Assembly: GCF_007004725.1 (NCBI RefSeq)
Contig: NZ_ML660160.1
Coordinates: forward strand, 248,001 to 312,000
DNA: 64,000 nt
Direction: 5' to 3'
DNA from: Aliikangiella coralliicola
GTDB taxonomy: Bacteria > Pseudomonadota > Gammaproteobacteria > Enterobacterales > Kangiellaceae
Shown here: piece after piece, positions 22,748 through 39,900 of the stretch
Numbering within the stretch: the stretch's first letter is position 1
Layout of the letters: the number at the start of each line of letters is the position of its first letter
The notes under the pieces: model-generated
Told to the model about the DNA's origin: nothing
Database searches by the model: none
The model's input: the letters and a program-made list of their open reading frames with translations, nothing else
Program-made: the position numbers and the translations under genes

Positions 22748-23959
22748 TTATTGTTCTCTTAAGGTTTCGATTGTGCCAAAATAATGTTCTAGTGCCTGCC
22801 TGACCAAAACATCAATTGACCAATTATTTTTAAATAATTTTTGGCAATCGATTTGTTGGGCTGGTAAGTTTTTACTCATTACTGCCCTTAGGGATTGAAG
22901 AAATTCGTCCTCAGAGCCTCTTGACCATAAAGTTCCTACGGTGCCATTCCGTGTCAAAACTTTGAAGCTTGGTATTTGGGTTATTACTGGAACTGCGCCG
23001 CAAACCAGCGCATCCAACACTGCAATCCCCGATCCCTCGCGAGCACTACCCTGAACAAAGATGTCTGCCGCACTATAATAGTCTGCAATTTCTGAGTAGG
23101 GGACTTGCCCGATTAGAGATACTGCATTTTCGAGCTTCGAATTGCTTTCCATTTTCTTTTTCACTTGTGTTAATAATTCTTTGCTACGAAATAACATCAT
23201 GAGCTGTGCATCGGGGAAGTCAATTAGAAATTGTTCGAAACCAGCGAGTATTGTTAAGGGATCTTTATTGTGATTGAGGTTTCCGGTCCATAAAAGTAGC
23301 GGTTTTCCAGCAAAACCTAGTTTATGCTTCGATTTATTTTTGTCTCTTGGTATTAGAGTCGAAGAACACTCCATCAGCTCGGTTATCTTTGAGCTGCTCA
23401 TCGCTTTGACTTTTATCCAGGGTTCTGCGTGTGACTTAGTAGTAAAGAAAAAACGCGTGACCTTTCTGTTGGCTGTTCTGTTAAATAGATGAGGCAGTTT
23501 TTGTAAAGGTCTTTCTGCGTGGTGTTGAACAAAATAACGTACACCTTCATTGAGTGAGTGGGTGAGATGTAACACACTCATCGGAAATATCAGCCCATTA
23601 ATGTGAATAGCGACCTGGTGCTCAGGTGAAGTTGCTTCCAGTGCGGAAAGTGGTTGGGTATCAGAAAATAACACTTGTCTAGCATAGTTAATAATTCTTC
23701 GATTGAAACTCAACGCGCAATGATAGAAAGATAGTCTGGGCGGCAAGGTGTCACTAACAAAAAAATATTGAACGTCATTAGATTCGAGCTGTTCATCTGT
23801 TTTGAAACGCTGAAATACAGAAACTTTTACGTCTTTTTTGCGACAAGCGTTTGCCCAGGCCGGGAGCATAAAATAATTTTCTAAAAGTATTTTCGGGTTA
23901 TTAATTTCGCTCTGATACGCGTAGTTAACGAGTATCAAGTGTTTTTTGCTTTCAGCCAA
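22748..23959 (-). CDS. GT-B glycosyltransferase (family 4-like)
   Basis: A 403-residue protein with the two-domain GT-B layout. The C-terminal half shows the family-4 nucleotide-sugar pattern: KPLLLWTGNLNHNKDPLTIL (about 225-245), SAADIFVQGSAREGSGIAVLDALVCGAVPVI (about 310-345). The latter carries the E-x7-D/E acidic motif. It transfers a sugar from an activated donor to an unknown acceptor. The start is TTG 23959, with GGGGGA about 4 nt upstream and no in-frame ATG nearby. It is divergent from the methyltransferase at 24144 and probably belongs to the same glycan or glycolipid region. Confidence 0.82.
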   Translation of the reverse strand: MAESKKHLILVNYAYQSEINNPKILLENYFMLPAWANACRKKDVKVSVFQRFKTDEQLESNDVQYFFVSDTLPPRLSFYHCALSFNRRIINYARQVLFSDTQPLSALEATSPEHQVAIHINGLIFPMSVLHLTHSLNEGVRYFVQHHAERPLQKLPHLFNRTANRKVTRFFFTTKSHAEPWIKVKAMSSSKITELMECSSTLIPRDKNKSKHKLGFAGKPLLLWTGNLNHNKDPLTILAGFEQFLIDFPDAQLMMLFRSKELLTQVKKKMESNSKLENAVSLIGQVPYSEIADYYSAADIFVQGSAREGSGIAVLDALVCGAVPVITQIPSFKVLTRNGTVGTLWSRGSEDEFLQSLRAVMSKNLPAQQIDCQKLFKNNWSIDVLVRQALEHYFGTIETLREQ

Positions 23960-24143: not shown

Positions 24144-24965
24144 ATGTGTATAGAGTTGAATTTTAATACACTTCACAATAACTCAACGGGTTTAGCAATG
24201 AAACAGTTAAATAAACTAGTCAATGAAAATTCTGCGATAATCTATTTAAGTGAACCTATAGACGATGTTTTTGAAAAGGCTTATGTAGAGACGCGAATTA
24301 AGGAGGAGAGAATTTTAACTGATGAGCAGGTATCTGAACTACCGAGAGTTTCACCTGATAACGCTCACCACCGTGAATGGCAGATACGAGAGCATTCAGC
24401 TCAAAATGTTGTGAAGTATTTTCGTAAATTTGACTGTAGTTGTTCGGATTGGGTTTTGGATATCGGTTGTGGTAATGGCTGGTTTAGTCATTTACTAGCA
24501 GAGAATATTGAAGCTAATGTATTGGCTGTTGACATTAACAGGTTGGAATTAGAGCAAGCCGCCAGGGTTTTTAGTCGAAAAAACCTCTATTTTGCTTATT
24601 TAGATTTATTTAGTGGTGTTCTTGAGCCAGGGCAGTTTTCGTTAATTATATTTAATAGTAGTTTCCAATATTTTCAAGATCCTGATTTGGTACTAGAACA
24701 ATGCTTGCCGTTATTAGCACCTTCGGGAGAAATTCATATTATCGATTCTCCATTTTATGAGCAGGAGAAAATAGCCGCGGCGAAATCTAGAACAGAAGCT
24801 TATTATCAGCAGTTAGAAACGGAGAAAATGATTGCGTTTTATCATCATCACAGTCGCACACTTATTGAACGTTATAACGCTAAAATTTTTTACCAACCTT
24901 CAAAGAATAAAGCCGTTCAGACTGAGATATGCTCACCTTTTCCATGGATAATGATAACACAATGA
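24144..24965 (+). CDS. Class I SAM-dependent methyltransferase
   Basis: A 273-residue protein with motif I VLDIGCGNGWFSHLL (about 108-122), the acidic end of strand 2 (VLAVDINRLE) and a post-II block LIIFNSSFQYFQDPD. The substrate is not predictable. The given start lacks a ribosome-binding site; ATG 24198 (MKQLNKLVNENSAII...) is equally possible and would give 255 residues. Its stop overlaps the next gene's start as ATGA, so it is translationally coupled to the glycosyltransferase at 24962, suggesting both modify the same molecule. Confidence 0.82.
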   Translation: MCIELNFNTLHNNSTGLAMKQLNKLVNENSAIIYLSEPIDDVFEKAYVETRIKEERILTDEQVSELPRVSPDNAHHREWQIREHSAQNVVKYFRKFDCSCSDWVLDIGCGNGWFSHLLAENIEANVLAVDINRLELEQAARVFSRKNLYFAYLDLFSGVLEPGQFSLIIFNSSFQYFQDPDLVLEQCLPLLAPSGEIHIIDSPFYEQEKIAAAKSRTEAYYQQLETEKMIAFYHHHSRTLIERYNAKIFYQPSKNKAVQTEICSPFPWIMITQ

Positions 24966-26086
24966 AAATTCTCATTGTGGTGCCGGGCGGTGTTCATCCC
25001 AGCGGAGAAGTGAAGGTAATACCTGCATTGTTATCATTATTGAAAACACTTAGTGTGGAGAACGAGGTTTGTATCATCGCACTGAATCAGCACCGCGAAT
25101 TAACCGAATATTACTTACATGGTTGTCTGGTGATTTCTTTACCAAATGTCCGATTCAGAAATATCTTTAGTGCTTACAGAATTGCTATCGCTCGCATGAA
25201 TCATTACAGATTCAAACCTGAAGTAACTCATAGCTTTTGGTTAGGGTCTCCAACGATATTCGCCGCAATGCTCTGTAAGAAGCTAAAAGTTCCACTCTTA
25301 GCGAGTATTGCTGGTGGAGAGTTAGTGAATATCTCTAAAATTAGATACGGTGGTTATAGAAGTTTCCTAAGCCGTTACTTAATCAAAAAGAGCATTAAAA
25401 TGGCGCAGGCTAGCAGTTGTGGTTCTAATTACTTGCAGTCGATAGCAGTCGATACCGTTAACATCAGAGCGTCATTAATTCCTCTGGGCATCGACCGCGA
25501 GTTTTGGCCTTTCAAAGTATGTGAAGATAAGGCTGAAAATCGGTGGAATTTGTTGCAATTGGCATCGATTAACCGAGTTAAAGATCCCTGGTTGATGCTT
25601 GAGGTAGTTAAACATCTAAAGCAATTGGGTTTACCATTCCATTTGAATTGGGTTGGAGGGGACACGCTAAATGGAGAAATTCAAAAACTAGCTGAAAAAA
25701 TGGGCTTAACGGAGTTCATTAGTTTTCATGACTTTGTAAAACAAAAAGAACTAAAACAAATGATGGCGGAGCAACATTTTGTGATTCAAACTTCCTATTA
25801 CGAGTCTCAAGGTATCGCTCTCGCTGAAGCTTGTAGCCAGGGAGTATGCCCGGTAGGCACCAGTGTCGGTTGGCTAAGTGATTTACAACTTGGTTTAGAC
25901 TTTCCCAGAGAAATACTAGCAGATAAGATCGCGACCCAGATTGTTCATTTAACCAATGCTCCTGAAGAGCGTCAAAAACGCGTTTTAAAAGCTCAGTCAT
26001 GGATAAAAAAGAACGATGTGACCATAACTGCACAAAAATTCATTGACAGTTACAACGAAATATTAACTCGATATGAGCACGCTTAA
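24962..26086 (+). CDS. Glycosyltransferase family 4
   Basis: A 374-residue GT-B enzyme starting MKILIVVPGGVHPSGEVKVI, a typical N-terminal nucleotide-fold strand and loop. The donor-site half includes LLQLASINRVKDPWLMLEVV and YESQGIALAEACSQGVCPVG with the E-x7-E motif. I choose the ATG at 24962 because it overlaps the upstream stop as ATGA; a longer frame back to 24929 adds eleven low-value residues. It is coupled to the methyltransferase before it and convergent with the methyltransferase gene that follows. Confidence 0.85.
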   Translation: MKILIVVPGGVHPSGEVKVIPALLSLLKTLSVENEVCIIALNQHRELTEYYLHGCLVISLPNVRFRNIFSAYRIAIARMNHYRFKPEVTHSFWLGSPTIFAAMLCKKLKVPLLASIAGGELVNISKIRYGGYRSFLSRYLIKKSIKMAQASSCGSNYLQSIAVDTVNIRASLIPLGIDREFWPFKVCEDKAENRWNLLQLASINRVKDPWLMLEVVKHLKQLGLPFHLNWVGGDTLNGEIQKLAEKMGLTEFISFHDFVKQKELKQMMAEQHFVIQTSYYESQGIALAEACSQGVCPVGTSVGWLSDLQLGLDFPREILADKIATQIVHLTNAPEERQKRVLKAQSWIKKNDVTITAQKFIDSYNEILTRYEHA

Positions 26087-26124: not shown

Positions 26125-26802
26125 TTAGTCGACTGAACACTTTGAAATTTCAAAGATGAAATTGTCTTCTAGTAGAAACTTTCTTTTTAAAACGATATTC
26201 AGGCTAAAATCATGGAGTCTCGCTATTTTTTTTATCCTGATTAAGTCGCATTCCTCGGACATAATCATGTAGACCTTACCGTTAACTTCACAATAATTGG
26301 AGAGCTCGCCAAAAAAACGCTCAAAATATTCATGAGATGCACCACAATACCAGGCTTGTTCGGCACTAGATTTTGGGGTTTTAGGATAGTAGGGCGGATT
26401 AACCACAATATAATCATAACGTTGCGTAACCTGGCTGAATAGATCAGATTGAAGGCTTGTTATGTTCAGCTTGTTTTCGTGTGCGTTTTTACGTGTATTA
26501 ACGACAGCAACTTCGCTTATATCAACTGCAGTAACCTTAGCGCCTTTTTTCGCGCCAACTAAAGACAAAATGCCAGAGCCCGATCCTAGATCGAGCAGTG
26601 TCTTATTTTTGAGAGGTAAATCATTAATGAAATCGGCAAATAACCTGGAACTGTAGAACAAACCCGGGTGAAACACGTCAACATCAACTTGCAGCGATAA
26701 ATTGTCATAGGAATACTGCCTCGGCGAAGCAAGGTAGATGAACTTAATATAAGGCTTTAGAGTATAGGTAAGTATGATTTTCAGTAGCTTTTTTATCATC
26801 AT
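26125..26802 (-). CDS. HemK/PrmC-like class I methyltransferase
   Basis: A 225-residue protein with motif I LLDLGSGSGILSLVGAKKG (about 70-88), AVDISEVAVVNTRKNA, and the NPPYYP motif (about residues 135-140). The [D/N]PPY motif marks enzymes that methylate amide or amine nitrogens (PrmC/HemK and N6-adenine types). No DNA-recognition domain is present, so a protein or small-molecule substrate is likelier. The N-terminus (LKIILTYTLKPYIKFIYL) is hydrophobic and may associate with the membrane. ATG-ATG at 26802 is preceded only by an A-rich stretch. Confidence 0.78.
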   Translation of the reverse strand: MMIKKLLKIILTYTLKPYIKFIYLASPRQYSYDNLSLQVDVDVFHPGLFYSSRLFADFINDLPLKNKTLLDLGSGSGILSLVGAKKGAKVTAVDISEVAVVNTRKNAHENKLNITSLQSDLFSQVTQRYDYIVVNPPYYPKTPKSSAEQAWYCGASHEYFERFFGELSNYCEVNGKVYMIMSEECDLIRIKKIARLHDFSLNIVLKRKFLLEDNFIFEISKCSVD

Positions 26803-27428: not shown

Positions 27429-28376
27429 ATGAATTATTCTAGTGTACGAACAGTATTAGGTGTACCCATTCACTTTTCTTGTGAAAGTAGGTCAATTCAT
27501 AGCATTATTTCTCAGATTTTTCCGCTAGAACATAAAGAGGTGGTTAGTGCTAATTACCAAATCTCAATTAATCATAGTTTGGTCGACTCTAAATCTTTAG
27601 ATTTTCCTGCTTTATTTGAGTTGAATGAGCACAAATTGGTTGGTCAGTCAGGAAACAACTGTTTCAAGGCCGATAGACTCAATAATATTGGCGAAGCTTT
27701 TGTATGTCAGCGTATGCTTAACAACGAATATGTATTACGTCATCAAGTGCTAAACACCCTTTGCTATTTTCTGTTGACTCACCATCATTTTTTACCCGTT
27801 CATGCTGCAAGCTTTCGGCTCAACCAACTTTTAGTATTATGCATTGGCTCAAGCGGTGCGGGCAAGTCAACACTTGCGATGGCAGCTAAGCATCGAAATT
27901 TAGTGGTGCTTGCAGAAGATATTTGTTTTGTCGGTGTAAGTAAGTCTGTCGGCCTGCGAGCTGACTGCAGAGAGTTTCATCTCTTTCCTGATAGCTATCG
28001 TTTATTTAACAATGACATCAATGCTCAAGCGGTAATGACTCATAACGGAAAACTAAAGCATATTATTGCTAATGATTCTAAACAATTCTCAACAGGCAAG
28101 GCGAATGGCAGTGCGTCAGAGTTGATTGTCGTCTTTATCAATTCAGACCGCTCTCAAAAGTCAGCGAAGTTTGAGCCTATTTCGACTAACAGTTATTTTA
28201 ATGACTTGCTATACCCCAAAGAAGAGGGGTTTGAATTATTTTCTAATGCGCGTTTGCCGGCAGTCCAATGGTTGAAAAAGAGTCCTTGTTTTAGCGCAAA
28301 TATTGCGGGCGATTTCAACCAATTCTTTGACAGTATTGAAAAAGTACATGATGAATTAATATGCGTCACACAATAA
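27429..28376 (+). CDS. HprK-like P-loop kinase
   Basis: A 315-residue protein with the P-loop of HPr kinase/phosphorylase C-terminal domains, CIGSSGAGKSTLAMAAK (about 138-153), followed by VVLAEDICFVG, the usual strand and acidic position. The N-terminal half is not the HPr-binding domain of classical HprK, and no PTS genes are near. 'HprK-related' kinases of this size occur in lasso-peptide and other peptide-modification loci, where they phosphorylate serine or alcohols. Here it heads a compact operon: its end overlaps the next gene by 16 nt. No good ribosome-binding site precedes the ATG. The substrate is unknown. Confidence 0.8.
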   Translation: MNYSSVRTVLGVPIHFSCESRSIHSIISQIFPLEHKEVVSANYQISINHSLVDSKSLDFPALFELNEHKLVGQSGNNCFKADRLNNIGEAFVCQRMLNNEYVLRHQVLNTLCYFLLTHHHFLPVHAASFRLNQLLVLCIGSSGAGKSTLAMAAKHRNLVVLAEDICFVGVSKSVGLRADCREFHLFPDSYRLFNNDINAQAVMTHNGKLKHIIANDSKQFSTGKANGSASELIVVFINSDRSQKSAKFEPISTNSYFNDLLYPKEEGFELFSNARLPAVQWLKKSPCFSANIAGDFNQFFDSIEKVHDELICVTQ

Positions 28377-29608
28377 AAGAAATATCTGAAACGCTTTTTG
28401 GTTGGCTCGCCACATTACTCCGAGGCGATTCTAGTTATTTTCCTGAAGAAATTAAAAATTGGAGTGATAAAGAATGGGAAGTCGCTAAAACCATCGTTTT
28501 TGTACATGGTATGGGGCCCTTATGGGGAAAAGAATGCTCCCGAGGCTTGGGTTGTCAGGAAATACCAGATGAGTTTAGAGACTATTTAATTCAACAGTAT
28601 CATCAGAATGGGTTACGCATTCAAAAAATTCGCGAATGTTATGAAAGAATAACTCAGGGACTCTCTAGAAAAAAAACTCGTTTCGTTCCGTTTAAAGGTA
28701 TTGAGCTTGCATTTAACGTGTATCCCGATCCTGCCACTCGACCGATGGCTGATATTGACCTTTATCTTGATAGCAAAGACAAAGATCTAATTGATGACAT
28801 TTTGACTGAAGGGGGATTTACGCCCGTAGCGATAACCGAGTCGGGCGCTACCTATTATCCTGGAGAGTGGATTGATAAACAAAAAAATATGTTTCGACTT
28901 AACCCAACCAATATGGATATTAATAATGAATTGTATGCAGGGGAAAATGAAAACTCTCCGTTTGGTATTGACGTTCATTTTGAAATTAAGATATTAGCCC
29001 TTCGCGATTTGACCTGTGCATTTGAAAGCGCCAGGTTAGAATCTGGAAAGCTAGCCGACACAGAACACTTTATTTACTTGCTTGTTCATGCGGCAAAACA
29101 TTTTATGAACAGAGGTGGACGATGGCTACACTTATACGATATCTATCTTTTCGAGAAAAAACATAAACTCGATTATCAATTGATTGTAAAGAAAGCCGTT
29201 GAATGGAGAGTAGCACATTTATTGTTAATTTCTTTATCGTTGTGTGAGCACTATTTTTCCAGTTTTCATCAATTGAAAGCATTACTCTACGCCGAAGTCG
29301 GGTGGAGACATAAACTTTTGGTGAACAATCTACAGCTAAGTGAAATGTCTTGCTGTAATCCGTGGCCAGTGAGTCCATTTGCTCAATTTATCTGGGTTCA
29401 TAGCTTTGTTGATGGTTTTGCTCTTTTGGCTGCTTTTAAAAACAGGAAGAAAAATACTCAAGTTCGGGAAGGGAAATCTCTTTCCTCGATCCCTTGGGCT
29501 GGGGCAAGATTGCTTACGATTATTAATAGACTAATCCAAAAAAAACCGAGAGAAGTCTGGAGTATTATGGCTGCTCATGATCTGAGCCCCAAGCAAGATT
29601 GGAAGTAG
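28361..29608 (+). CDS. Nucleotidyltransferase-family protein (NTP_transf_5-like)
   Basis: A 415-residue protein resembling the 'uncharacterised nucleotidyltransferase' family. The putative active region is FKGIELAFNVYPDPATRPMADIDLYLD (about 107-133), with the D-x-D pair in ADIDLYL, followed by DILTEGGFTP. Downstream are conserved-looking FGIDVHFEIKI and a helical HLLVHAAKHFMNRGGRWLHLYDI segment. Family members often sit beside HprK-like kinases, radical SAM enzymes or ABC exporters, which is exactly the context here, but few have a proven reaction. The gene overlaps its upstream neighbour by 16 nt. Confidence 0.75.
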   Translation: MRHTIKEISETLFGWLATLLRGDSSYFPEEIKNWSDKEWEVAKTIVFVHGMGPLWGKECSRGLGCQEIPDEFRDYLIQQYHQNGLRIQKIRECYERITQGLSRKKTRFVPFKGIELAFNVYPDPATRPMADIDLYLDSKDKDLIDDILTEGGFTPVAITESGATYYPGEWIDKQKNMFRLNPTNMDINNELYAGENENSPFGIDVHFEIKILALRDLTCAFESARLESGKLADTEHFIYLLVHAAKHFMNRGGRWLHLYDIYLFEKKHKLDYQLIVKKAVEWRVAHLLLISLSLCEHYFSSFHQLKALLYAEVGWRHKLLVNNLQLSEMSCCNPWPVSPFAQFIWVHSFVDGFALLAAFKNRKKNTQVREGKSLSSIPWAGARLLTIINRLIQKKPREVWSIMAAHDLSPKQDWK

Positions 29609-29619
29609 GAGCTATTGCT

Positions 29620-31179
29620 ATGATGAACCAATCCAATAATAAAATCCTCATTGCACATGCCTTTTTTCTCAACAACGACAGCAAGCAATACTCAGATAAA
29701 TTCAAACCCTACCCTCCGTTAGCAGCGCTATATGCGGCCTCACTATTAAGAGAGAGTGGCTATGACGTAGATTTGTTCGATGCTGTCCTATCAGAAGGTA
29801 TTCAAGAACTTTTTGCTATTTTAGAAAGCGAACCACCATCAATGTTAGTGGTTTACGAGGACGATTTTAATTTTCTAACCAAGATGTGTCTCTCGCATGT
29901 TCGCGATACAACTTTGCGTATGATCGATTCAGCGAAAGCGCTAAATATTCCAGTTATTATTCATAGCTCGGATGCATCTGATAATCCAGAGATTTATTTG
30001 CTAAGAGGTGCTCGTTTAGTTATTTATGGAGAAGGTGAACAAACTTTAGTGGAGGCTACCGAGTACTTTTCTAAAGAAAAAGTAAGGGAACCGGAATATA
30101 TTGAAGGTATTTACTATTTATCAAATGATAAAGTCAAAAAGACCAGTGAACGCAAACCACTACGAGCGCTAGACAAATTGCCACAGCCAGCGTGGGACTT
30201 GGTTGAGTTTGACCAATATCGAGAAGCTTGGAAAAAAAAGCATGGTTTCTTTAGCATAAATATGGTCACCACGAGGGGATGCCCATATAAGTGTAATTGG
30301 TGTGCAAAACCTATTTGGGGGCAGCAATACAGTTCACATAGTCCCGAATATGTCGCTGAGCAATTAGAATGGCTAGTGAAAAATGCCGCGCCAGAACACA
30401 TCTGGTTTGCTGATGATATATTTGGGTTAAAAAAAGGTTGGATAGAGCGTTTCTCTAAAAAAGTTGATGAGTTAAAAATTCAAATTCCCTTCATGATTCA
30501 ATCAAGAGCCGATCTAATTAACGAGGACGTTGCTGCGTCATTGAAAGTTGCAGGATGCTCTGAGGTTTGGTTGGGGGTTGAAAGCGGAAGTCAGAAAATT
30601 TTAGATGATATGGATAAAGGGATAACCTTGTCTCAGGTAAAAAATGCACGGCGACTTTTGGCTGACTGCTCCATTGATGTTGGCTTTTTTATTCAATTGG
30701 GCTACTTGGGGGAAGACTTGCTTGATATCGATAGTACCCGAGAAATGCTGTTGGAACTAAAGCCGGAGAAAATTGGGGTTAGCGTGAGTTATCCATTACC
30801 CGGTACACCATTTTATCAAAAGGTTAGAGACCAGATGTCAGAGAAGAGCCACTGGTTAGAAAGTAATGATCTCGATACCGTTTTTCAGTCAACTTTTAGC
30901 GCAGAATTTTATCGTCGAATCAGAGAGCATTTACACCAAGAGTTGCAAAGTGAAGAGGAGGAAAGAAAATATTGGAATACTCAGTGGCGGCAATTAATGG
31001 AGACGGCTGAAAGTTATCGTAATAAAGTTCCAGAGTCGACTCTTGCGCCAGGCTGTCTTGCCTCGAATTTTGGCTCTGCAAAAACTTCGGTATCATTAGA
31101 TGCTAAGAGAGTAGCTAAGTCGTTAAAGGTAAGAAGCAGCAAATTGGGCGGCAAACGAATTAAGTTACAAGTACTTTAG
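29620..31179 (+). CDS. B12-binding-domain radical SAM enzyme 1
   Basis: A 519-residue protein. The N-terminal cobalamin-binding-like Rossmann domain (about 10-140: LAALYAASLLRESGYDVDLFDA ... LVIYGEGEQTLVEA) is followed by a radical SAM barrel with GCPYKCNWC, cysteines C221, C225 and C228. Then come the substrate-barrel strands IWFADDIFG and EVWLGVESGSQKIL. Class B enzymes of this layout methylate unactivated carbon or phosphorus or remodel rings. I set the start at ATG 29620 because TAGGAG lies 8 nt upstream; the frame extends back to 29599 inside the previous gene. An Arg/Lys/Ser-rich C-terminal tail follows the barrel. The gene is probably co-transcribed with those around it. Confidence 0.88.
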   Translation: MMNQSNNKILIAHAFFLNNDSKQYSDKFKPYPPLAALYAASLLRESGYDVDLFDAVLSEGIQELFAILESEPPSMLVVYEDDFNFLTKMCLSHVRDTTLRMIDSAKALNIPVIIHSSDASDNPEIYLLRGARLVIYGEGEQTLVEATEYFSKEKVREPEYIEGIYYLSNDKVKKTSERKPLRALDKLPQPAWDLVEFDQYREAWKKKHGFFSINMVTTRGCPYKCNWCAKPIWGQQYSSHSPEYVAEQLEWLVKNAAPEHIWFADDIFGLKKGWIERFSKKVDELKIQIPFMIQSRADLINEDVAASLKVAGCSEVWLGVESGSQKILDDMDKGITLSQVKNARRLLADCSIDVGFFIQLGYLGEDLLDIDSTREMLLELKPEKIGVSVSYPLPGTPFYQKVRDQMSEKSHWLESNDLDTVFQSTFSAEFYRRIREHLHQELQSEEEERKYWNTQWRQLMETAESYRNKVPESTLAPGCLASNFGSAKTSVSLDAKRVAKSLKVRSSKLGGKRIKLQVL

Positions 31180-31191
31180 AGGCTTAACGAT

Positions 31192-32568
31192 ATGCCTGAT
31201 ATCCTACTGACTCACGGTTACTTTCTTTTTGAGGATGAAAAAGAACAAGAGATTATGCGCCCGTACGTTCCATTGGGGTTGCTATATTTGTCTTCCTATT
31301 TGAAGCATCATCAAATTTCGGTTGAAATTTTTGACAGTACTTTCAAAAGCCGAAGTGAGTTAATCGCTCTTTTTCAAGCCAACCCAGGAGGCATCGTTGG
31401 AATTTATACTAACCTGATGACTCGTCCTTCGGTAGTAAAAATTATTCAGGCTGCGAAAAAATATAACTGGACTGTAATTACAGGTGGTCCTGAATCGGCT
31501 AACTACATCGAGAATTATTTATTGAATGGAGCTGATTTTGTCGTATTAGGAGAGGGAGAACAAACGACTAAGGAGTTAGTGCAAGCATTAAAAGACAATA
31601 ACGAGCTCGGCAATATCGCTGGTTTGGCTTTTTTCGATAAACAGGGCAAATTGATAAGAACCGCTGCGCGAAATATGCCGAGAAATATTAGCGAATACCC
31701 ATGGCCGGATAGAGAAGCAATCGATATACAAAAATACCTTGACGTTTGGCAGGAGTTTCATGGTGAGTCTAGCGTCAGTATGATTACCGCTAGAGGGTGT
31801 CCTTACCAATGCAAATGGTGTTCTCATGCCGTATTTGGTTTTAGCCACCGTCGGCGAGAGCCCGCAGAGTGTGCTGATGAGTTGGAACATATTGTTAACC
31901 GTTACAATCCAACCAAGGTATGGTATGCGGATGATGTCTTCACTATTAATCACCGATGGCTTTTCCGATATGCAGAAGAACTAAAAAAGAGAAAACTCAA
32001 GGTGCCTTTCGAAACGATTTCAAGGGCCGACCGAATGATGGATGAAAAAGTGGTAGATACGCTCAAAGAACTTGGGTGTTATCGGGTTTGGATCGGTGCA
32101 GAAAGTGGCAGCCAAAGGTTGCTTGACCATATGAAACGAAAGGTGACGATTGAGCAAGTGTATCAAGCCACAAAGTCTGCGCAGCGCCGAGGAATTGAAG
32201 TTGGGATGTTCCTCATGTGGGGGTATGCAGATGAAAATATTGATGACATCGACGAAACGGTGCGCCAAGTTGCTAAGATAAACCCTGACATCTATTTAAC
32301 GACAGTTGCTTATCCAATTAAAGGCACTGAATATTTTGCTGAGAATCAAGAGAAGATATCAATTCAAGTCAAGTGGGAAGATGGAAGTGATAGAGATTAC
32401 CAAATCTCAGGTAGGCGTAGCGCGAGATACTATCGATATGCGAATCGCTACCTTAAGAATACTGTAGAGTTTCATCGGTTGAAAGATAGTGGCTCGCCAA
32501 AGTTATCAATGAAATTAAAACATGCTGAAAAATCAAGGAAGCTATTGGAGAAAGCTGCCCATGAGTAG
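31192..32568 (+). CDS. B12-binding-domain radical SAM enzyme 2
   Basis: A 458-residue paralogue of the preceding enzyme, starting 12 nt after it. The N-terminal domain (LGLLYLSSYLKHHQISVEIFDS ... GGPESANYIENYLLNGADFVVLGEGEQT) is cobalamin-binding-like. The cluster motif GCPYQCKWC gives C203, C207 and C210. The downstream VWYADDVFTI and RVWIGAESGSQRLL match barrel strands 2 and 4 of the same family. The two enzymes may act in succession on one substrate. Its last 8 nt overlap the start of the following methyltransferase gene. Confidence 0.88.
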   Translation: MPDILLTHGYFLFEDEKEQEIMRPYVPLGLLYLSSYLKHHQISVEIFDSTFKSRSELIALFQANPGGIVGIYTNLMTRPSVVKIIQAAKKYNWTVITGGPESANYIENYLLNGADFVVLGEGEQTTKELVQALKDNNELGNIAGLAFFDKQGKLIRTAARNMPRNISEYPWPDREAIDIQKYLDVWQEFHGESSVSMITARGCPYQCKWCSHAVFGFSHRRREPAECADELEHIVNRYNPTKVWYADDVFTINHRWLFRYAEELKKRKLKVPFETISRADRMMDEKVVDTLKELGCYRVWIGAESGSQRLLDHMKRKVTIEQVYQATKSAQRRGIEVGMFLMWGYADENIDDIDETVRQVAKINPDIYLTTVAYPIKGTEYFAENQEKISIQVKWEDGSDRDYQISGRRSARYYRYANRYLKNTVEFHRLKDSGSPKLSMKLKHAEKSRKLLEKAAHE

Positions 32569-33340
32569 TATTCAATCGCTATTTGATGACTGTGCTGTTG
32601 ACTATGATAAAACATTTAGCCGAACGTTTTTAGGTGGCTATTACAGAAGTAGAACTCATCGTGTTTTTGATAAATATTATTCAGGTGATTCGAGGATTTT
32701 GGAACTCAACTCTGGAACTGGTGAAGATGCGATTTATCTAGCTGAATCCGGAAGTCAAGTGCTAGCGACGGATCTTTCTGCGTCCATGCTAAATGTGATT
32801 AATGATAAAGTTGCGCGAAAAGAATTGGAAGGTAAAGTTTCTACAAGAATACTGGATTTACAGGATTTAGACCAAATGGCTGGGTCGAAATTCGATGGAG
32901 TCGTTTCGAATTTCGGTGGACTTAACTGTATTAATAATTGGCGAAAATTCGCACGAGATGCTTATAACCTGATGAATGATGGTGGTATTTTGTTTGTCTG
33001 CATAATGGGACCGATAGTTCCCTGGGAATGGCTTTGGTATTTGTTGCAGAGAGATTTGGCTGAAGCATTCCGAAGAGTTAAAGGAAAATCATCTTGGCGC
33101 GGCGAAGATATCTACTACCCTAAGGCTAGCGAATTCAAAAAAATAGTTGAGGCAGAATCTTTTCAGTTAGTTTATCAAGAAGCTTTAGGAACTTTTATGC
33201 CACCACCGTATACGAACAAGCATGTGGAAAAGTGGCCTGTATTCTATCGAAGTATGAGCAAGCTGGAAACTTTTGTTTGTCAGAGTAACATTGCTTGCCA
33301 TTTATCTGATCACTATGTGTTGGTTTTTAAGAAGTGTTAG
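32561..33340 (+). CDS. Class I SAM methyltransferase
   Basis: A 259-residue methyltransferase. Motif I is ILELNSGTGEDAIYLAESG, then ATDLSASML (acidic strand-2 end), DLQDLDQM, and GVVSNFGGLNCI at motif IV. I place the start at ATG 32561, which overlaps the previous stop (ATGAGTAG) and has GGAG 10 nt upstream; the frame can be read from 32522. It sits between two B12 radical SAM genes, so it probably O-, N- or C-methylates the same product. The unusual LELNSGTGED replaces the common GxGxG start of motif I but keeps the required acid and glycines. Confidence 0.82.
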   Translation: MSSIQSLFDDCAVDYDKTFSRTFLGGYYRSRTHRVFDKYYSGDSRILELNSGTGEDAIYLAESGSQVLATDLSASMLNVINDKVARKELEGKVSTRILDLQDLDQMAGSKFDGVVSNFGGLNCINNWRKFARDAYNLMNDGGILFVCIMGPIVPWEWLWYLLQRDLAEAFRRVKGKSSWRGEDIYYPKASEFKKIVEAESFQLVYQEALGTFMPPPYTNKHVEKWPVFYRSMSKLETFVCQSNIACHLSDHYVLVFKKC

Positions 33341-33386
33341 TAATAGGAAGAAGCTGTTAGAACTGTATTGAAATAAGAAGGTTATT

Positions 33387-34895
33387 ATGCAAGTTGATGA
33401 ACAAACATTAATAATATTTTATAACCCTCAGTGTGCGAAACCAAATTATCAGCGAATGCCTGCTGCCATTCTTCAAGTCGCATCGTTAATTGAAGGTCGA
33501 TTTAGTTATGAGATCGTCGATGGGAATTTGCGTAGTGAAGTTAGTCATGCACAACAAATTGTCGATAAAGTTCACCACAAAGGTGTTAAATATTTAGCGA
33601 TTAGTATTATGCCTGGGCCGCAACTTGTCTCAACCTTAAAAGATTTGAGAATAATTAAAAAGCATTGTCCTGAATTAACTGTAATAGTTGGTGGTTATTT
33701 TCCGTTAAATCATTATCAAGTCTGCGCCAATGACCGGGATATTGATTATGTTATTGTTGGGCCTGGAGAGCGAAGTTTTCGGGATTTGATTGTTGCATTG
33801 GAGACTGGGAGTTTACCTGAAACAGTTTCAGGTATCGCCTTTGAGCGAAATGGAGAATTAGTTACGACTAACCGCAGTCACCCTATGAATCCGAACCACT
33901 TGCCTCGATATCCCTACCACAGAATTAACGTTGAAGATTACGTCTTACCCACTTTTTTAGGGTCCAGAACACTCAGTCACCATAGTAGTTTTGGGTGTCC
34001 TTTTTTTTGCAATTTTTGTGCTGTCGTTTCATTGGCCGACGGAAAATGGATAGGTGAGACTGGAGAGCGTCTCGGAGAGTTGGCTCAATATATGGTGAAC
34101 AAGTGGCAGATAAATGCATTGGAGTTTCACGATAATAATTTTTTTACAGCGGAAAAAAGAGTAAAAGAATTCTGCAATCAACTTATCAGTCGAAATCTAA
34201 AAATAAGTTGGTGGGGAGAAGGACGCGCTGATACATTGCTTAAATATAAAGATGAAACATGGCGGCTAATGCGAGATTGTGGACTGAAAATGGTTTTTCT
34301 TGGAGCGGAAAGCGGTGATGATGAAACTTTAAGGCGTATGAATAAAGGCGGGAAACAGTCGGCGTCCGGCGTGTTAAAGCTGGTTAAGAAAATGAAGGAT
34401 TTTGATATTATTCCCGAACTGAGTTTTATTTTAGGTAATCCGCCAAACCCAGTTAAAGATATGAAAAAAAGTATTAAGTTTATAAGAAAAATTAAGAAGT
34501 TAAATCCTAGTGCAGAAATCATAATGTATCGTTATGACCCCGTGCCTGTCGGCGGAGAAATGTTTGACCAGGTTACTAAATTGGGCTTTAGTTTTCCAAC
34601 CAGTTTGGAAGAGTGGGTTGACCCCAAATGGAGGAAAATCCAGAAGAGAACAACCGCTGATGTTCCATGGTTAACCGAAAAAGAGCAAATTTTCTTGGCT
34701 GAGTTTCAAACGGTACTGAATGCTTATTATCCTACGTCCACGGCTCGGCATATTAAACCTGGCTCGTGGCGTTATTGGTTGTTAAAACTGGTAAGTGGTT
34801 TTCGCTATCATGGACACTTTTATTTCAGGCCCTATGAGCTCAACTGGTTACAGCAGAAGTTGAGTTATCAAAGACCGGAAATTTCAGGCTTTTAG
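33387..34895 (+). CDS. B12-binding-domain radical SAM enzyme 3
   Basis: A 502-residue protein with an N-terminal cobalamin-binding-like domain (VKYLAISIMPGPQLVSTL ... VIVGGYFPLNHYQ, DIDYVIVGPGERSF). A radical SAM cluster motif GCPFFCNFC follows (C204, C208, C211). Barrel segments LEFHDNNFF, WWGEGRAD and KMVFLGAESGDDETL follow. It is more distant from the first two enzymes than they are from each other. The ribosome-binding site is AGAAGGTT before ATG 33387, and 46 nt separate it from the methyltransferase. The substrate is unknown. Confidence 0.87.
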   Translation: MQVDEQTLIIFYNPQCAKPNYQRMPAAILQVASLIEGRFSYEIVDGNLRSEVSHAQQIVDKVHHKGVKYLAISIMPGPQLVSTLKDLRIIKKHCPELTVIVGGYFPLNHYQVCANDRDIDYVIVGPGERSFRDLIVALETGSLPETVSGIAFERNGELVTTNRSHPMNPNHLPRYPYHRINVEDYVLPTFLGSRTLSHHSSFGCPFFCNFCAVVSLADGKWIGETGERLGELAQYMVNKWQINALEFHDNNFFTAEKRVKEFCNQLISRNLKISWWGEGRADTLLKYKDETWRLMRDCGLKMVFLGAESGDDETLRRMNKGGKQSASGVLKLVKKMKDFDIIPELSFILGNPPNPVKDMKKSIKFIRKIKKLNPSAEIIMYRYDPVPVGGEMFDQVTKLGFSFPTSLEEWVDPKWRKIQKRTTADVPWLTEKEQIFLAEFQTVLNAYYPTSTARHIKPGSWRYWLLKLVSGFRYHGHFYFRPYELNWLQQKLSYQRPEISGF

Positions 34896-34979
34896 TTTTA
34901 TGAATTTGTCTCGGAAACAACTGAAGAACATTTAGAGTCAACAAATGGGTATATCATTAATCTACTCAAGAGTCCGAAT

Positions 34980-36008
34980 ATGCACACACTGAAATGGTTA
35001 GTTTTAGGTGTCAATAATATATGCAACTTGCATTGCAAAATGTGCGATGTAGGAACTGGCTCAAAGGAAACCAATTTTTCTGAAAATTTGATTGGGGCCC
35101 GGCCTATTGATATGCCTTTAGAACTGTTTCGAGAGATTTCACTGCAAGCGAAATCATACTTTCCTAATGCCAAGTTAGGGTATGCTTTCACCGAACCACT
35201 TATTTATAAGTATCTAGAAGAGAGTTTGGAGATTGCATGCGTTAATGAATTAGAGGTTGCGATTACGACTAATGGTTTAAAGCTTAAACAAAAAGCGAAT
35301 GCAATTTTAGAATATGGCGTCGAGAATATTTTTTTATCATTAGATGGAACAGAGGAAATCCATAATAGTATCCGCGGAAATAAGTACTCTTTTCAAAAAG
35401 CATTGGATGGTATTGAAGAATTAATCAAGCACGCTAAGAGGCCCAAGATTTCCATTTTTTGTGTGATCACCGAGTGGAATATAGGCAATCTTAGTGAGCT
35501 TGTAGAATTTTTCTCACAATATCCCATTGAGCAGCTAGGGTTTATGCATACTAATTTTACCACAGTCGAAATGGCGCAGGAGCACAATATGCACCATGGA
35601 TATTACTATCATGCTACGCATTCGAATATTGAAGAGATTAACATTGACGAAATGAACCTCGACTTGTTGTGGAGCGATATTTGCCGAATTAAAAGTCTGG
35701 CTACTGATTTTAAGGTCAGTTTTTCTCCAGAAATAGAAACTCGAGAAATGTTGGATGTTTTTTACCATAAACCGAAACTTTTTATAGGAAGAAAATGCCT
35801 GGATATATATCGAAATATAATGCTCAAATCTGATGGGAGCGTGATTCCAGCACATGGTCGCTGTTTTAATCTTGAACTTGGCAATCTTTATCAAAGTGAC
35901 TTGCTGACGATTTGGCAGTCACAAGTGTTGCGGAAGCTGCAGTTGGATCTAGATAAGGCAGGAGGACTATTTCCTGCGTGTGCGAGGTGTTGTAGTGCTT
36001 TCCATTAG
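34980..36008 (+). CDS. Radical SAM/SPASM-domain protein
   Basis: A 342-residue protein without a B12 domain. The cluster motif lies at the very N-terminus: CNLHCKMC (C15, C19, C22). The middle has the GNKYSFQKALDGIEEL region common in peptide-modifying members. The C-terminus carries SPASM-like cysteines: GRKCLD, GRCFNL and CARCCSAFH. SPASM proteins bind extra iron-sulfur clusters and often modify ribosomal peptides (thioether, carbon-carbon links) or sugars and protein residues. The frame is open 84 nt further upstream but offers no ATG, GTG or TTG, so 34980 is the only standard start. Confidence 0.87.
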   Translation: MHTLKWLVLGVNNICNLHCKMCDVGTGSKETNFSENLIGARPIDMPLELFREISLQAKSYFPNAKLGYAFTEPLIYKYLEESLEIACVNELEVAITTNGLKLKQKANAILEYGVENIFLSLDGTEEIHNSIRGNKYSFQKALDGIEELIKHAKRPKISIFCVITEWNIGNLSELVEFFSQYPIEQLGFMHTNFTTVEMAQEHNMHHGYYYHATHSNIEEINIDEMNLDLLWSDICRIKSLATDFKVSFSPEIETREMLDVFYHKPKLFIGRKCLDIYRNIMLKSDGSVIPAHGRCFNLELGNLYQSDLLTIWQSQVLRKLQLDLDKAGGLFPACARCCSAFH

Positions 36009-36034
36009 TACACAAATAAAGCAAGAAATAGAGT

Positions 36035-37810
36035 ATGACTACGATGCTTAGTCAAATTAAATCTCTAGTATCTGCTTTTCGTTACCTGTACTCGTTTTCT
36101 CCATCGGGAGTTATCGTTAATCTGGTGCTTATGCTGTTGCAAGGAGCGACAGCTGGTATTGGTATATTGTTGCTAATACCTATGTTGGGATTTATTGGCC
36201 TGGAAGATTCAACAATGCCTGATATCCAGTTCACAGAGTCGCTTGAAAGTGCTTTAGGATTTCTAGGCATTAACTTGAGTTTGATGACTGTTCTGGTAGT
36301 GTATGTATCGATATTGTCATTGGTAGCGTTCGTTCAATATTCGTTAACCGTCCAAGTTTCAAAAATCCAACAAAGAATTATTTGTTACTTTCGCGAGCTG
36401 CTTCACTTTGCTCTTTTAAAATCAAATTGGCAGTTTATTACCGAAAATAAATTATCTAAGTTTGGGCATACATTGACATTGCAGATTCAGTCAATGGGAA
36501 ATGTGTTTCAGCAGTTATTGTTGCTGATAAGCCAGATGCTTATGATTTTTGTGTATGTAACATTGGCTATTCTTTTGTCCTGGGAAATAAGCTTGTTAGC
36601 CGTACTTTTTGCGGCAGCTCTTGTTCTTCCGATTATTCCATTTAACCATAAAATACATCAAGCAGGAAAAAAAAGGCTACTTGGTTTTAGTGATATTTTT
36701 CAAATTATTGGTGAGCAACTTGACAGCATTAAAACGATTAAAACTTTTAATGCGGAGTATTTTTTTCATAAAAAGCTAAAGGTAGCAAACCAGAAACTAG
36801 AGAAGCAAGTCGTTCTTGCTAGCTCAGCTAATGCGCTATCCAAGTTAATGTTTACTATTGCTTCTGTTGTTTTTATTAGCGCAATTTTTTATGTTTCTTT
36901 AGTCTGGTTAGAAGTAGCTGTTTCGACTCTGCTACTTGTTTTGTTTATTTTTTCTCGATTGCTGCCGAGTATCGCCACCTTAATTAATACGCTTCACTTG
37001 TTATTATTTGAGCTACCGTCTATTGAGGATGTTAGAGAAACAATAAAAACCTTTAGGGTGAATGAGCAAATTGATTTTTCAGCCTCAAAACTGAAAGCGT
37101 TTGATAGTTCAGAACATGACGGTGTTATTGAATTTAAAAATGTTGTTTATCGTTATCCAGGGAAAGCTTTAAATGCGATCGACAATTTGTCGTTTAAAAT
37201 TGCAATCAATCAAACAACCGTATTTTTTGGGCCATCTGGCTCGGGCAAAACAACGACAGCAGATTTACTAGTCGGATTGTTAATGCCAACAGCAGGCAAA
37301 GTTGTTATTAATAATCAGCATTTGAATCCTGAGTTACTAATGTCATGGCGGCATAATGTGGCTTATGTCACCCAAGAAAACCACCTGTTTCACCAATCTA
37401 TCAGAGATAATCTTAACTGGGTAAGTGAAGGAATAACCGAGCACGAAATTTGGCTCGCGTTAGAGCAAGCGTCCGCTAAAGATTTTGTCGAGAGATTGCC
37501 TGATGGGCTAGACAGTATTATTGGCGATAAAGGTGTACGAATTTCGGGTGGGGAACGGCAGAGACTGGCGCTTGCCAGGGCACTATTGAAAAAGCCAAAG
37601 TTACTTGTGTTGGATGAAGCGACAAGTGCGCTAGATAAAGTTAACGAACAGAAAATTCAAAGCGCACTAGCTCGTTTAAAGGGGAAGTTAACGATAATAA
37701 TTATTGCTCATAGAGATTCGAGCATTCGAAATGCTGATCAAGTCGTTTATTTTGGCGATAGTTCCGACGAGCAAAAAATAAGTAAGATATCTTCAATTAA
37801 TGTTTATTAG
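36035..37810 (+). CDS. ABC exporter, fused membrane and ATPase domains (MsbA/LapB-type)
   Basis: A 591-residue half-transporter with about six transmembrane helices (about 20-330), then a complete ATPase: Walker A GPSGSGKTT (399-407), the Q-loop region AYVTQENHLF, signature SGGERQ (504-509), Walker B LLVLDE (523-528) and the switch histidine in IIIAHRDS. No N-terminal peptidase (C39) domain is present, so it would not cleave a leader itself. Such exporters move lipid-linked glycans, lipopeptides or peptides across the inner membrane. It lies 26 nt after the SPASM gene and is the likely exporter of the operon's product. Confidence 0.9.
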   Translation: MTTMLSQIKSLVSAFRYLYSFSPSGVIVNLVLMLLQGATAGIGILLLIPMLGFIGLEDSTMPDIQFTESLESALGFLGINLSLMTVLVVYVSILSLVAFVQYSLTVQVSKIQQRIICYFRELLHFALLKSNWQFITENKLSKFGHTLTLQIQSMGNVFQQLLLLISQMLMIFVYVTLAILLSWEISLLAVLFAAALVLPIIPFNHKIHQAGKKRLLGFSDIFQIIGEQLDSIKTIKTFNAEYFFHKKLKVANQKLEKQVVLASSANALSKLMFTIASVVFISAIFYVSLVWLEVAVSTLLLVLFIFSRLLPSIATLINTLHLLLFELPSIEDVRETIKTFRVNEQIDFSASKLKAFDSSEHDGVIEFKNVVYRYPGKALNAIDNLSFKIAINQTTVFFGPSGSGKTTTADLLVGLLMPTAGKVVINNQHLNPELLMSWRHNVAYVTQENHLFHQSIRDNLNWVSEGITEHEIWLALEQASAKDFVERLPDGLDSIIGDKGVRISGGERQRLALARALLKKPKLLVLDEATSALDKVNEQKIQSALARLKGKLTIIIIAHRDSSIRNADQVVYFGDSSDEQKISKISSINVY

Positions 37811-37985
37811 TGCAGTTAGTTAAGCCAAATTAAATTGAAGCGAACTTTGTAACAATATTGATTTGTATTCTATGATTAAAAATTATCAGGTGAATTTAGA
37901 AGTTGATTTTTAAGTAATAATTACGAGCCAGAGAGCTATTGCTTTGTTTTGAGACAGTATTGCCAATATTTCTTTAGCTTCACAA

Positions 37986-38804
37986 ATGAAGCGAGTAAAT
38001 ATCATGAAACTATATATTTATGGTTGCCTACTGTTAGTGCTTTTAGGTTGCGAACCAGGAACCGGAGAGTTTTTTGAGGACGACTCTGGAAATGAGCCTC
38101 CTCCCCAAACCAGTGAATTGCTAAGCCAGATACAACAAACTGTGTTTACGCCCATCTGCATTCAATGTCATATTGGCGCGCAAGCGCCGCAAGGATTGAG
38201 GCTAGAAAGTGAGGTAATTGCTTTTCAATCCCTGGTCAATGTCGCGGCTGTCGGGAACTCTGATTTTGATTTAGTAAAACCATTTGATCCCGAGAATAGT
38301 TATCTTGTGTTAAAAGTTCGAGGAGATCCTCGTGCCGGACAGAGAATGCCTCTCGGATTAGCGCCTCTTAGTGATGAGAGTATTCAGTTGATAGAAGAAT
38401 GGATAAGGGAGGGGGCGTTGCCAATTCCTGAGTCGAATTTGACTAAAGTAATTTCTATTACTAGAGAGAAATCAAAAGGTAGTTTTTCAAATTCATATAT
38501 CGTCACTTTTAGTTCTCCGTTAGTTCCGGCAGCGTTTTCTTACGATAGCATTTTTTTATACGAGTTCAATGGTTCGCACAAATATCTGTTAACGCCAGGT
38601 GAGTATCAAATAAAACCACTTAATAGTTTTCAATTTAAAATAGTGCTTGAACAACGCACCAGAGAGTTAGAAGGATTGACGTTGGTTTTGAATGACCCTG
38701 ACGGTTCTCCTCTAATTGACTTGAATAATAAAACTCTTGATGGTGACAATGATAATCAAGAAGGGGGAAGGTATGAATTTCACCTTGAATTGCGTAATGA
38801 GTAA
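37986..38804 (+). CDS. c-type heme (CxxCH) lipoprotein
   Basis: A 272-residue protein with a lipoprotein signal ending LLVLLGC (C22) and one heme-attachment motif C58-I-Q-C61-H62. The region HIGAQAPQGLRLES ... GDPRAGQRMPLGLAPLSDESIQLIEEWIREGA resembles the planctomycete/marine cytochrome-c-like domain; the RMPLG methionine is a candidate second axial ligand. After that a beta-rich domain without known family ends the protein. A start at ATG 38004 (MKLYIYGC...) is equally likely. It is 175 nt after the ABC exporter and overlaps the next gene. Confidence 0.78.
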   Translation: MKRVNIMKLYIYGCLLLVLLGCEPGTGEFFEDDSGNEPPPQTSELLSQIQQTVFTPICIQCHIGAQAPQGLRLESEVIAFQSLVNVAAVGNSDFDLVKPFDPENSYLVLKVRGDPRAGQRMPLGLAPLSDESIQLIEEWIREGALPIPESNLTKVISITREKSKGSFSNSYIVTFSSPLVPAAFSYDSIFLYEFNGSHKYLLTPGEYQIKPLNSFQFKIVLEQRTRELEGLTLVLNDPDGSPLIDLNNKTLDGDNDNQEGGRYEFHLELRNE

Positions 38805-39900
38805 GAATTTATTCCTTAAGTTTATTTTTGTTGCAGCTTCGGTTTTCTCTGCAAATCAAGCTAAAGCGGAACCCTATATTTCTATCAAGACAAACCAGCC
38901 TTGTTCGGCCTGCCATGTTAATCCGAGCGGAGGAGGAATGAGAACAAGCTATGGAAACGTCTATGGTTATATGGAGTTGCCAGCAGAAAGTTCCGATGCA
39001 AACAATTTTGACTTCGCTAAAGTATCGGAATTTATTCAGTTTGGCGGAAATTTAAGGTATGACTTCGACGCATCAAAAGACGACGCTACCGATAAAACCG
39101 CTAGCGGCTTTGGAGTGGAGTCTGCGCAAATTTACACTTTAATTAAAGCTGGGAGAGACGATTTATTACTCTATCTTGATCAGCAAGTTTCACCAGGAAC
39201 AGCTTTGAGTAGAGAGGCTTTGCTAATCAAAAAGTTCGACAATGGTGATTACTTGAAAGTTGGTAAAATGATGCCTTCTCTAGGATTGAGAATCGAAGAT
39301 GACGGGGCTTTTATTCGACAAGTGACCGGGTTTAATTTTGACAATAGTGATAATGGTATTGAGTATGGGTTAACCAGCGGTTCTTCCTTTTACAACTTTT
39401 TCATTACTAATGGAACAAGTTCAGTAACGAATGACGACAATAAGTTTCAGTTTGGGGCTCGCGCTGAGTATTTTCTAGGTGACTTTCGTATAGGGGGAGC
39501 TGCAGTAATTAATCAAGGCGATGAGGTTGATAAGAAAATATTAGCCTTGTTTGCGGGGTATCATTGGAATAATTTCACCATTATGGGAGAAATCGATACG
39601 GTAAATAACCAAAATAATGGTACTGCAAATGGAAATGGTGAAGATATTACGGAATTGATCGGTCTGATTGAATTGAATTATGAAACCAGCAAAGGCCATA
39701 ATATTAAAGTGACCACAGAATACCATGATCCTGATGATGATTTTAAGGAAGATCACAGAATTAGAAACTCGGTTGTCTACGAATACACGCCTTACTCAAA
39801 TATTCAACTTCGGTTTGGATATCGAGAGCGTGAAGCACCACCACAATTTCCAGAACAGAATCTGGAGAGAATCTTTGTGCAAACACATTTTTATTTTTGA
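38773..39900 (+). CDS. Outer-membrane beta-barrel protein with N-terminal CxxCH motif
   Basis: A 375-residue protein. A signal peptide (to about AKA32) is followed by PCSACHVNPSGGGMRTSYG with one c-type heme motif (C44-S-A-C47-H48). The remaining 300 or so residues alternate hydrophobic and polar strands and end in THFYF, the aromatic C-terminus that outer-membrane barrels use for insertion. I choose ATG 38773 because AAGGGGGAAGG stands directly upstream; ATG 38797 and a longer frame from 38737 are alternatives. It overlaps the heme lipoprotein gene, so the two heme proteins probably work together, for example in electron transfer near or across the outer membrane (inference). Confidence 0.75.
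   Translation: MNFTLNCVMSKNLFLKFIFVAASVFSANQAKAEPYISIKTNQPCSACHVNPSGGGMRTSYGNVYGYMELPAESSDANNFDFAKVSEFIQFGGNLRYDFDASKDDATDKTASGFGVESAQIYTLIKAGRDDLLLYLDQQVSPGTALSREALLIKKFDNGDYLKVGKMMPSLGLRIEDDGAFIRQVTGFNFDNSDNGIEYGLTSGSSFYNFFITNGTSSVTNDDNKFQFGARAEYFLGDFRIGGAAVINQGDEVDKKILALFAGYHWNNFTIMGEIDTVNNQNNGTANGNGEDITELIGLIELNYETSKGHNIKVTTEYHDPDDDFKEDHRIRNSVVYEYTPYSNIQLRFGYREREAPPQFPEQNLERIFVQTHFYF

Follow-up and report, generated by a model that had tools for sequence, protein, structure and literature searches.

Few enzymes can methylate unactivated carbon, and the B12-dependent radical S-adenosylmethionine (SAM) methylases are some of them. To our knowledge, the logic of tagging a substrate and then methylating it is otherwise known from fosfomycin only. 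In this pathway of Streptomyces (Fom1/Fom3/FomD) a nucleotidyl tag is followed by B12 radical SAM methylation, Fom3 acting on C2 of a substrate tagged with cytidine monophosphate (CMP), 2-HEP-CMP, as described in the part of the article cited here (PMC8158854). In the lasso peptide tailoring loci (paeninodin, pseudomycoidin), an HprK-like kinase is encoded beside a nucleotidyltransferase. According to the passages cited from a second article, phosphorylation by PsmK comes first, and the phosphate is then modified by PsmN, which is related to nucleotidyltransferases; PsmN added hexoses, its true activity being left open there (PMC9266682). Here we analyzed a gene set of Aliikangiella coralliicola, contained in a stretch of 64,000 nucleotides (contig NZ_ML660160.1, positions 248,001 to 312,000 of the forward strand; from here on the window, whose numbering is used throughout), that has traits in common with these systems.

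With fosfomycin biosynthesis the likeness is a functional analogy only, since the genes considered here, among which no phosphonate gene was seen, encode a nucleotidyltransferase of the PF14907 family or one like the aminoglycoside nucleotidyltransferases (ANT), together with glycosyltransferases, an exporter and three radical SAM enzymes. Compared with the lasso tailoring loci, the window has a radical SAM core, and no PqqD, B2 protease, cyclase or precursor. Like O-antigen and capsule clusters, the locus and its relatives show glycosyltransferases, flippase-like and ATP-binding cassette (ABC) exporters and, close to the core, sulfotransferase-like and O-antigen-ligase genes; unlike them, the window locus as scanned has no sugar-nucleotide genes, and we know of no surface-polysaccharide cluster with a core of nucleotidyltransferase, B12 radical SAM enzyme and methyltransferase. 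The closest loci, all of them uncharacterised, are found in Bacteroidota and in one member of Gemmatimonadota (L008). The core and most of the accessory families are common to them and the window, whereas the Bacteroidota loci have another nucleotidyltransferase family, no HprK-like kinase, and often flippases in place of the ABC exporter. The individual enzymes come from known superfamilies, and what we describe is an uncharacterised core, shared mainly with Bacteroidota, of which the window carries a composite variant.

The initial annotation of the window had claimed ten open reading frames (ORFs), and all ten were recovered with their coordinates from the ORF listing. Eight of them, as it had described, are packed head to tail on the plus strand; they fill 27429-37810, and neighbours overlap or lie no more than 84 bases apart (successive spacings of -16, -10, +12, -47, +46, +84 and +26 bases):

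27429..28376, plus strand: HprK-like P-loop kinase, a tentative label (TIGR04352, 19.2 bits of 200)
28361..29608, plus strand: PF14907 nucleotidyltransferase (7.5e-34; 117.8 bits, cut-off 31.2)
29599..31179, plus strand: B12 radical SAM enzyme "a" (PF04055, 2.1e-16)
31192..32568, plus strand: B12 radical SAM enzyme "b" (PF04055, 2e-22; PF02310, 2.2e-11)
32522..33340, plus strand: class I SAM methyltransferase with an SNFGGLNC motif (PF13649, 3.8e-13)
33387..34895, plus strand: B12 radical SAM enzyme "c" (PF04055, 1.1e-11; PF02310, 9e-9)
34980..36008, plus strand: radical SAM/SPASM enzyme (PF04055, 3.8e-17; PF13186, 2.2e-6)
36035..37810, plus strand: ABC exporter (PF00005, 1.7e-31; a peptidase domain is not reported)

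The listed start of gene "a" is a TTG at 29599, and the start given earlier, 29620, is an ATG inside the gene.

The related loci were collected in two steps. A scan of species genomes with the 31192 protein gave nine, L008 and eight from Bacteroidota (L009-L016, three of them from Aureispira), and a profile of the same protein matched 23 of 296 sampled Bacteroidota genomes (E <= 1e-100), mostly through the "a" paralogue. One of these 23 was an Aureispira genome already in the set, and the other 22 gave the regions L040-L061, of up to 20 kb each, in such a way that 31 related loci were compared. By construction each of them has "a" or "b", a bias from which the other genes are free. Several loci come from near relatives (e.g., L012/L014, L011/L013, L049/L051, L055/L056 and L040/L041), so that the counts overstate the number of independent lineages. 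Relatives were counted with the window's own proteins at E <= 1e-20, and 22 regions from 11 genomes of the same genome set served as controls, with L064 and L065 left out of them for bordering a core locus.

Relatives of "a" are present in all 31 loci, partly by construction, and relatives of the core methyltransferase in 26; this methyltransferase is a separate gene in 30 loci and is fused to "a" in L059. A nucleotidyltransferase-type gene was detected in 29 loci, in 24 of which it adjoins "a" on the same strand; the other two are L013, where the contig ends inside "a", and L016, of which 18 kb were examined. These three functions make up the core, while "b", "c", the SPASM enzyme, the other methyltransferases, the exporters and the glycosyltransferases vary. 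Relatives of "b" occur in 14 loci (again partly by construction), of "c" in 16 and of the exporter in 6, and close relatives of the SPASM enzyme, with 50-55% identity, in 3 (and in 3 of 9 genomes). The fullest parallel is the row of L008, with a PF14907 gene, an HprK-like gene, "a", "c", "b" and the methyltransferase; the simplest is L059, where the fusion lies beside a nucleotidyltransferase gene as a minimal unit. The initial annotation had left open whether these genes are scattered in relatives. They co-occur: the same families stand together again and again in related loci and in none of the 22 control regions, so that their clustering goes beyond chance. The exporter was rejected as a specific marker of the set, as its matches in control regions reach 2.9e-14. 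At positions 7197-7548 of L008, a radical SAM gene broken by the contig end follows the core methyltransferase directly.

The claim of three B12-type radical SAM enzymes holds for PF04055, which is over its cut-off in all three, and for the B12-binding domain (PF02310, cut-off 32.1 bits) in 31192 and 33387, with 44.1 and 35.6 bits; the match of 29599 (20.8 bits) falls under it. The CxxxCxxC motif does not vary in the alignments of "a" (9 rows), "b" (10 rows) and "c" (7 rows). In a quick tree, in which several branches are long, the three window proteins fall into three separate groups (98, 99 and 99% in the SH-like approximate likelihood-ratio test, SH-aLRT), and the window "b" pairs with that of Gemmatimonadota (93%). 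A search of the own genome with 31192 (E <= 1e-10) returned, apart from the query, its two neighbours and nothing else. The solved structures nearest to "b" include OxsB, AprD4, CysS and TokK. None of the named B12 radical SAM equivalogs (BchE, HpnJ, PhpK, OxsB-like and others) passes its NCBIfam cut-off among the matches listed (in the case of 31192, the top 25 of 30), the best score of the radical SAM proteins being 141.6 bits for BchE against a cut-off of 481. Two more paralogues of the B12 radical SAM enzymes, "d" and "e", were seen in L009, L011 and L013, and L011 has five B12-type radical SAM genes in total.

In the class of the host the set is rare. By its 16S the genome is that of a gammaproteobacterium, the nearest plasmid-borne copies listed coming from gammaproteobacteria (up to 87.9%, with E. 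coli at 86.8%). The genome of A. coralliicola itself, counted in each sample, was the sole match of 33387 among 99 close kin (E <= 1e-20), of 31192 among 369 genomes of the class (E <= 1e-40) and of an "a" profile among 229 genomes of the class (E <= 1e-90). A search of 398 genomes of the phylum with the nucleotidyltransferase 28361 returned the own genome and one distant match (25%). In a tblastn of 31192 against plasmids, the matches listed were relatives with 21-29% identity, and of the two Gemmatimonadota genomes sampled the known one matched. The cluster was probably gained by horizontal transfer.

The initial annotation had seen in the kinase and the nucleotidyltransferase a pair that recalls peptide-modification loci, and the same genome bears this out. 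Its sole other PF14907 gene lies on contig C9, in a lasso-type locus at about 73-88 kb (L092 6458-14093 and L093 504-10418), near a PqqD (80.4 bits, cut-off 80) and a B2 protein (68.4 bits, cut-off 33). The exporter of this locus is the nearest relative of 36035 in the genome, 42% identical over residues 11-582, and its kinase is related to that of the window (25.7%, 1.9e-6), whose only other relative is in L008 (3.4e-7). From these counterparts, the kinase, the nucleotidyltransferase and the exporter of the window are assigned to the lasso-locus type. By sequence comparison, the radical SAM enzymes and the three methyltransferases are assigned to the type of the Bacteroidota clusters, and the glycosyltransferases probably belong there too. 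Judged by eye, the C9 locus also encodes one protein like an asparagine synthetase, two like sulfotransferases and three like tail-collar proteins.

Two families of nucleotidyltransferase type occupy one slot. In the window and L008 it is PF14907 (144.1 bits and 7.4e-42 in L008) together with an HprK-like protein, and among the related loci only L008 has counterparts of this pair; in Bacteroidota it is another family with a probable nucleotidyltransferase fold. For 27429 the HprK-like label is weak, drawn from a P-loop and a family score far under its cut-off (19.2 bits against 200; 25.3 of 200 for the L008 protein). H125, K146, D164 and D188 can be read as the catalytic His-Lys-Asp-Asp set of HprK-related and lasso kinases; L008 has the His, the Lys and the last Asp at matching positions and the third residue shifted by one, in a comparison of two sequences only; a structure model from this two-row alignment had a confidence score (pLDDT) of 36. 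The Bacteroidota protein gave no Pfam match (E <= 0.01) in the one representative scanned, and a Gly and two Asp (DxD) are invariant in 21 rows. Its model (pLDDT 92) begins with a winged helix, followed by a core that structure comparison matches best to ANT(4')/kanamycin nucleotidyltransferases (Z 9.3, with 3.1 Å over 114 residues and 15% identity); among the families listed, the rows below these are winged-helix proteins.

The surroundings of the core were compared in 30 regions, L008 (7.5 kb) being outside them. Glycosyltransferase relatives were found in 23 of the 30 core regions and in 2 of the 22 controls when own-locus seeds were excluded (Fisher p 1.1e-6), in 24 versus 2 when these were kept, and in 12 versus 0 with the two glycosyltransferases of the window as sole seeds. 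Flippase-like matches appeared in 8 of the 30 and full-length exporter matches in 4, with none in the controls (seeds not excluded). In representatives, Pfam identified glycosyltransferases (GT87, GT9, GT2 and GT4) close to the core, as well as sulfotransferase-like and capsule-type proteins, FkbM methyltransferases, amidohydrolases and O-antigen ligases. Five loci (L047, L048, L053, L054 and L055) have near the core a recurrent amidohydrolase-type protein of about 386 amino acids, weakly similar to aminofutalosine deaminase, which in most of them adjoins a methyltransferase of 250 amino acids.

With these data, we propose that the cluster methylates an exported, sugar-containing molecule by means of a handle, a reading to which we give a probability of about 0.4. 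The HprK-like kinase would phosphorylate a small acceptor (a sugar, a polyol or a lipid head group), and the nucleotidyltransferase would then attach a nucleotide to it, as the handle; this order is modelled on PsmK and PsmN, and the step that follows on Fom3 in fosfomycin biosynthesis. The enzymes "a", "b" and "c" would put methyl groups on unactivated carbons, the three SAM methyltransferases could cap O or N atoms, and the SPASM enzyme might perform an oxidation or a cross-link. The glycosyltransferases would incorporate the unit into an oligosaccharide or glycolipid, and the ABC protein would export the finished glycoconjugate. That several modifications fall on one molecule, as the initial annotation had read from the number of enzymes, is plausible. 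The adjacency of "a" and the nucleotidyltransferase gene in 24 of 31 loci is suggestive of a nucleotidyl-tagged substrate.

A number of observations weigh against this proposal. The kinase resembles HprK only weakly, and no HprK-like kinase was seen in the Bacteroidota loci examined. Comparison of profiles revealed no similarity between the PF14907 type and the Bacteroidota family. For the latter, unrelated winged-helix proteins matching residues 1-80 reached Z 7.4-8.6 against the 9.3 of ANT, and the top Foldseek match, a toxin-antitoxin nucleotidyltransferase, had E 0.018, so that none was at E <= 0.001. On the side of the glycan, 7 of the 30 regions are without any glycosyltransferase searched for, the ORFs scanned in the window (20654-46395) gave no Pfam match for sugar-nucleotide synthesis, and the neighbours of the minimal unit in L059 are otherwise outside the set. 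Finally, the window exporter shares 27-33% identity with the exporters of related loci, less than the 42% that it shares with the lasso-type exporter.

As the locus is a composite with lasso-type parts, a peptide stays as a rival product: the kinase, the PF14907 protein and the exporter would serve a peptide encoded or processed elsewhere, for example in the C9 locus, that the radical SAM and SPASM enzymes modify. SPASM enzymes often have peptide substrates. Lasso kinases and PsmN act on a terminal Ser in the cited part of their description, and the C9 locus provides PqqD, B2, the other PF14907 gene, a related kinase and the 42% identical exporter. Nevertheless, as had been noted from the start, no precursor is obvious, and the short ORFs (646 of 20-110 amino acids, not mostly inside larger genes, from window positions 22001-40500 and the 31 loci, compared all against all with BLAST at E 1e-3) formed only six matched groups of two loci each, five of them from the near-identical L049/L051 and none with the window, so that no window short ORF is conserved among the 31 loci within the limited power of BLAST. 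The reported absence of a PqqD-like gene agrees with the ORFs listed in the intergenic gaps of 26803-40102, which by eye have about 50 amino acids or less and are too short for it; and among the Pfam matches of window ORFs of at least about 120 amino acids (10.6-57 kb), there is neither a lasso cyclase, as claimed, nor PqqD/B1 or B2. The SPASM enzyme has no extra leader-binding domain in front of the radical SAM domain with which it begins, and only 3 of 31 loci have it, in contrast to the enrichment of glycosyltransferases; the exporter has no leader-peptidase-type domain. We regard a peptide product as unlikely.

Another rival is the idea of a small diffusible product, aminoglycoside-, nucleoside- or phosphonate-like, with the ANT-like nucleotidyltransferase as self-protection. 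It would draw on the modelled ANT-type fold in Bacteroidota, on radical SAM profile matches to OxsB and AprD4, which belong to the oxetanocin and apramycin pathways, and on the minimal core standing apart from glycosyltransferases in L059. However, surface-polysaccharide surroundings are frequent, the window has PF14907 and not the ANT-like family, and no aminocyclitol, phosphonate or nucleoside building gene was detected among the scanned window ORFs, which makes it very unlikely in our estimate. Action of the radical SAM enzymes on a membrane lipid or a tetrapyrrole, with chemistry like that of BchE or HpnJ and glycosyltransferases decorating the lipid, also looks improbable. The three radical SAM enzymes find their best NCBIfam matches in the models of BchE and HpnJ or PhpK, the exporter resembles MsbA, PglK and HepA, and heme-type lipoproteins are present in some related loci; but the model matches lie far below their cut-offs, as with the BchE score above, and no lipid or tetrapyrrole gene was seen in the set.

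Returning to the handle mechanism, both it and its product would be new if confirmed. That 29 of 31 loci have a nucleotidyltransferase gene along with "a" suggests tag-then-methylate as a general logic, and, were this true, about 8% of the sampled Bacteroidota (23/296), Aureispira included, would carry an undescribed methylated molecule. The conserved gene pairs, the natural fusion and a minimal version with three functions make the idea testable in vitro. In full, the proposal would be an exported glycoconjugate or natural product of a class not described before, on which a (phospho-)nucleotidyl handle licenses successive C-methylations by B12 radical SAM enzymes, with the core spread in Bacteroidota together with optional methylases and one gammaproteobacterium in which a lasso-type kinase, nucleotidyltransferase and exporter were swapped in; taken as a whole, this is doubtful. 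In line with the earlier statement that no named pathway matches, no NCBIfam model was over its cut-off among the matches listed for the proteins of the set (for three proteins, the best 25), and the gene set was not found described in the titles and abstract starts of open-licence PubMed Central literature, a weak form of absence.

The limits of the locus had to be redrawn. By homology with related loci, the set has about 12 genes, from 22748 to 37810, and the initial annotation, which began it at 27429, missed four upstream members:

22748..23959, minus strand: glycosyltransferase of GT1/GT4 type (PF00534, 1.4e-18)
24144..24965, plus strand: SAM methyltransferase (PF13649, 3.1e-13)
24929..26086, plus strand: glycosyltransferase of GT4 type (PF00534, 2e-15)
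26125..26802, minus strand: methyltransferase with an NPPY motif, which we take to be HemK/PrmC-like (PF05175, 3.6e-17)

Relatives of 22748 were found in 5 of the 31 loci (best 9.5e-69, against 0.59 in the controls), of 24144 in 7 (5.1e-65 against 0.5) and of 26125 in 10 (4.4e-62 with 44% identity, against 0.003); in 9 of these 10 the latter adjoins "c". The glycosyltransferase 24929 is the weakest member, with relatives in 2 loci (2.6e-34 against 1.1e-4). The flanking trypsin, SnoaL, LysR, DsbC and beta-lactamase genes had relatives in none of the 31 loci. As these and the CxxCH genes downstream score zero and the upstream genes match, the set was delimited to 22748-37810. Promoter- and terminator-like sites did not exceed in number those of shuffled sequence.

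Two overlapping genes (37986-39900) that begin 175 bases after the eight-gene run had been included in the locus as heme proteins. Both 37986 and 38737 do have CxxCH motifs, but the Pfam heme match is borderline in 37986 (PSCyt1, 22.4 bits against a cut-off of 22, with no single stretch passing) and there is none in 38737; with relatives in 0 of 31 loci, their membership of the set is not supported. A weak match of 37986 (7e-9) is a 141-amino acid ORF located 2 kb upstream of the L055 core. CxxCH ORFs were counted in 8 of 31 core loci, two of which look incidental, and in 1 of 22 controls, an enrichment near the core that is suggestive at most. By eye, one of the two window proteins is lipoprotein-like and the other porin-like. 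A lipoprotein-like family of about 390 amino acids with a conserved CxWCHE lies inside or beside the core in L010, L011, L012, L013, L016 and L041, and one member scanned had no Pfam match. Elsewhere in the window, an ORF of 2810 amino acids extends from 1395 to 9827, and the region 51005-56964 codes for two large proteins that carry endosialidase-chaperone (S74) and Calx-beta domains.

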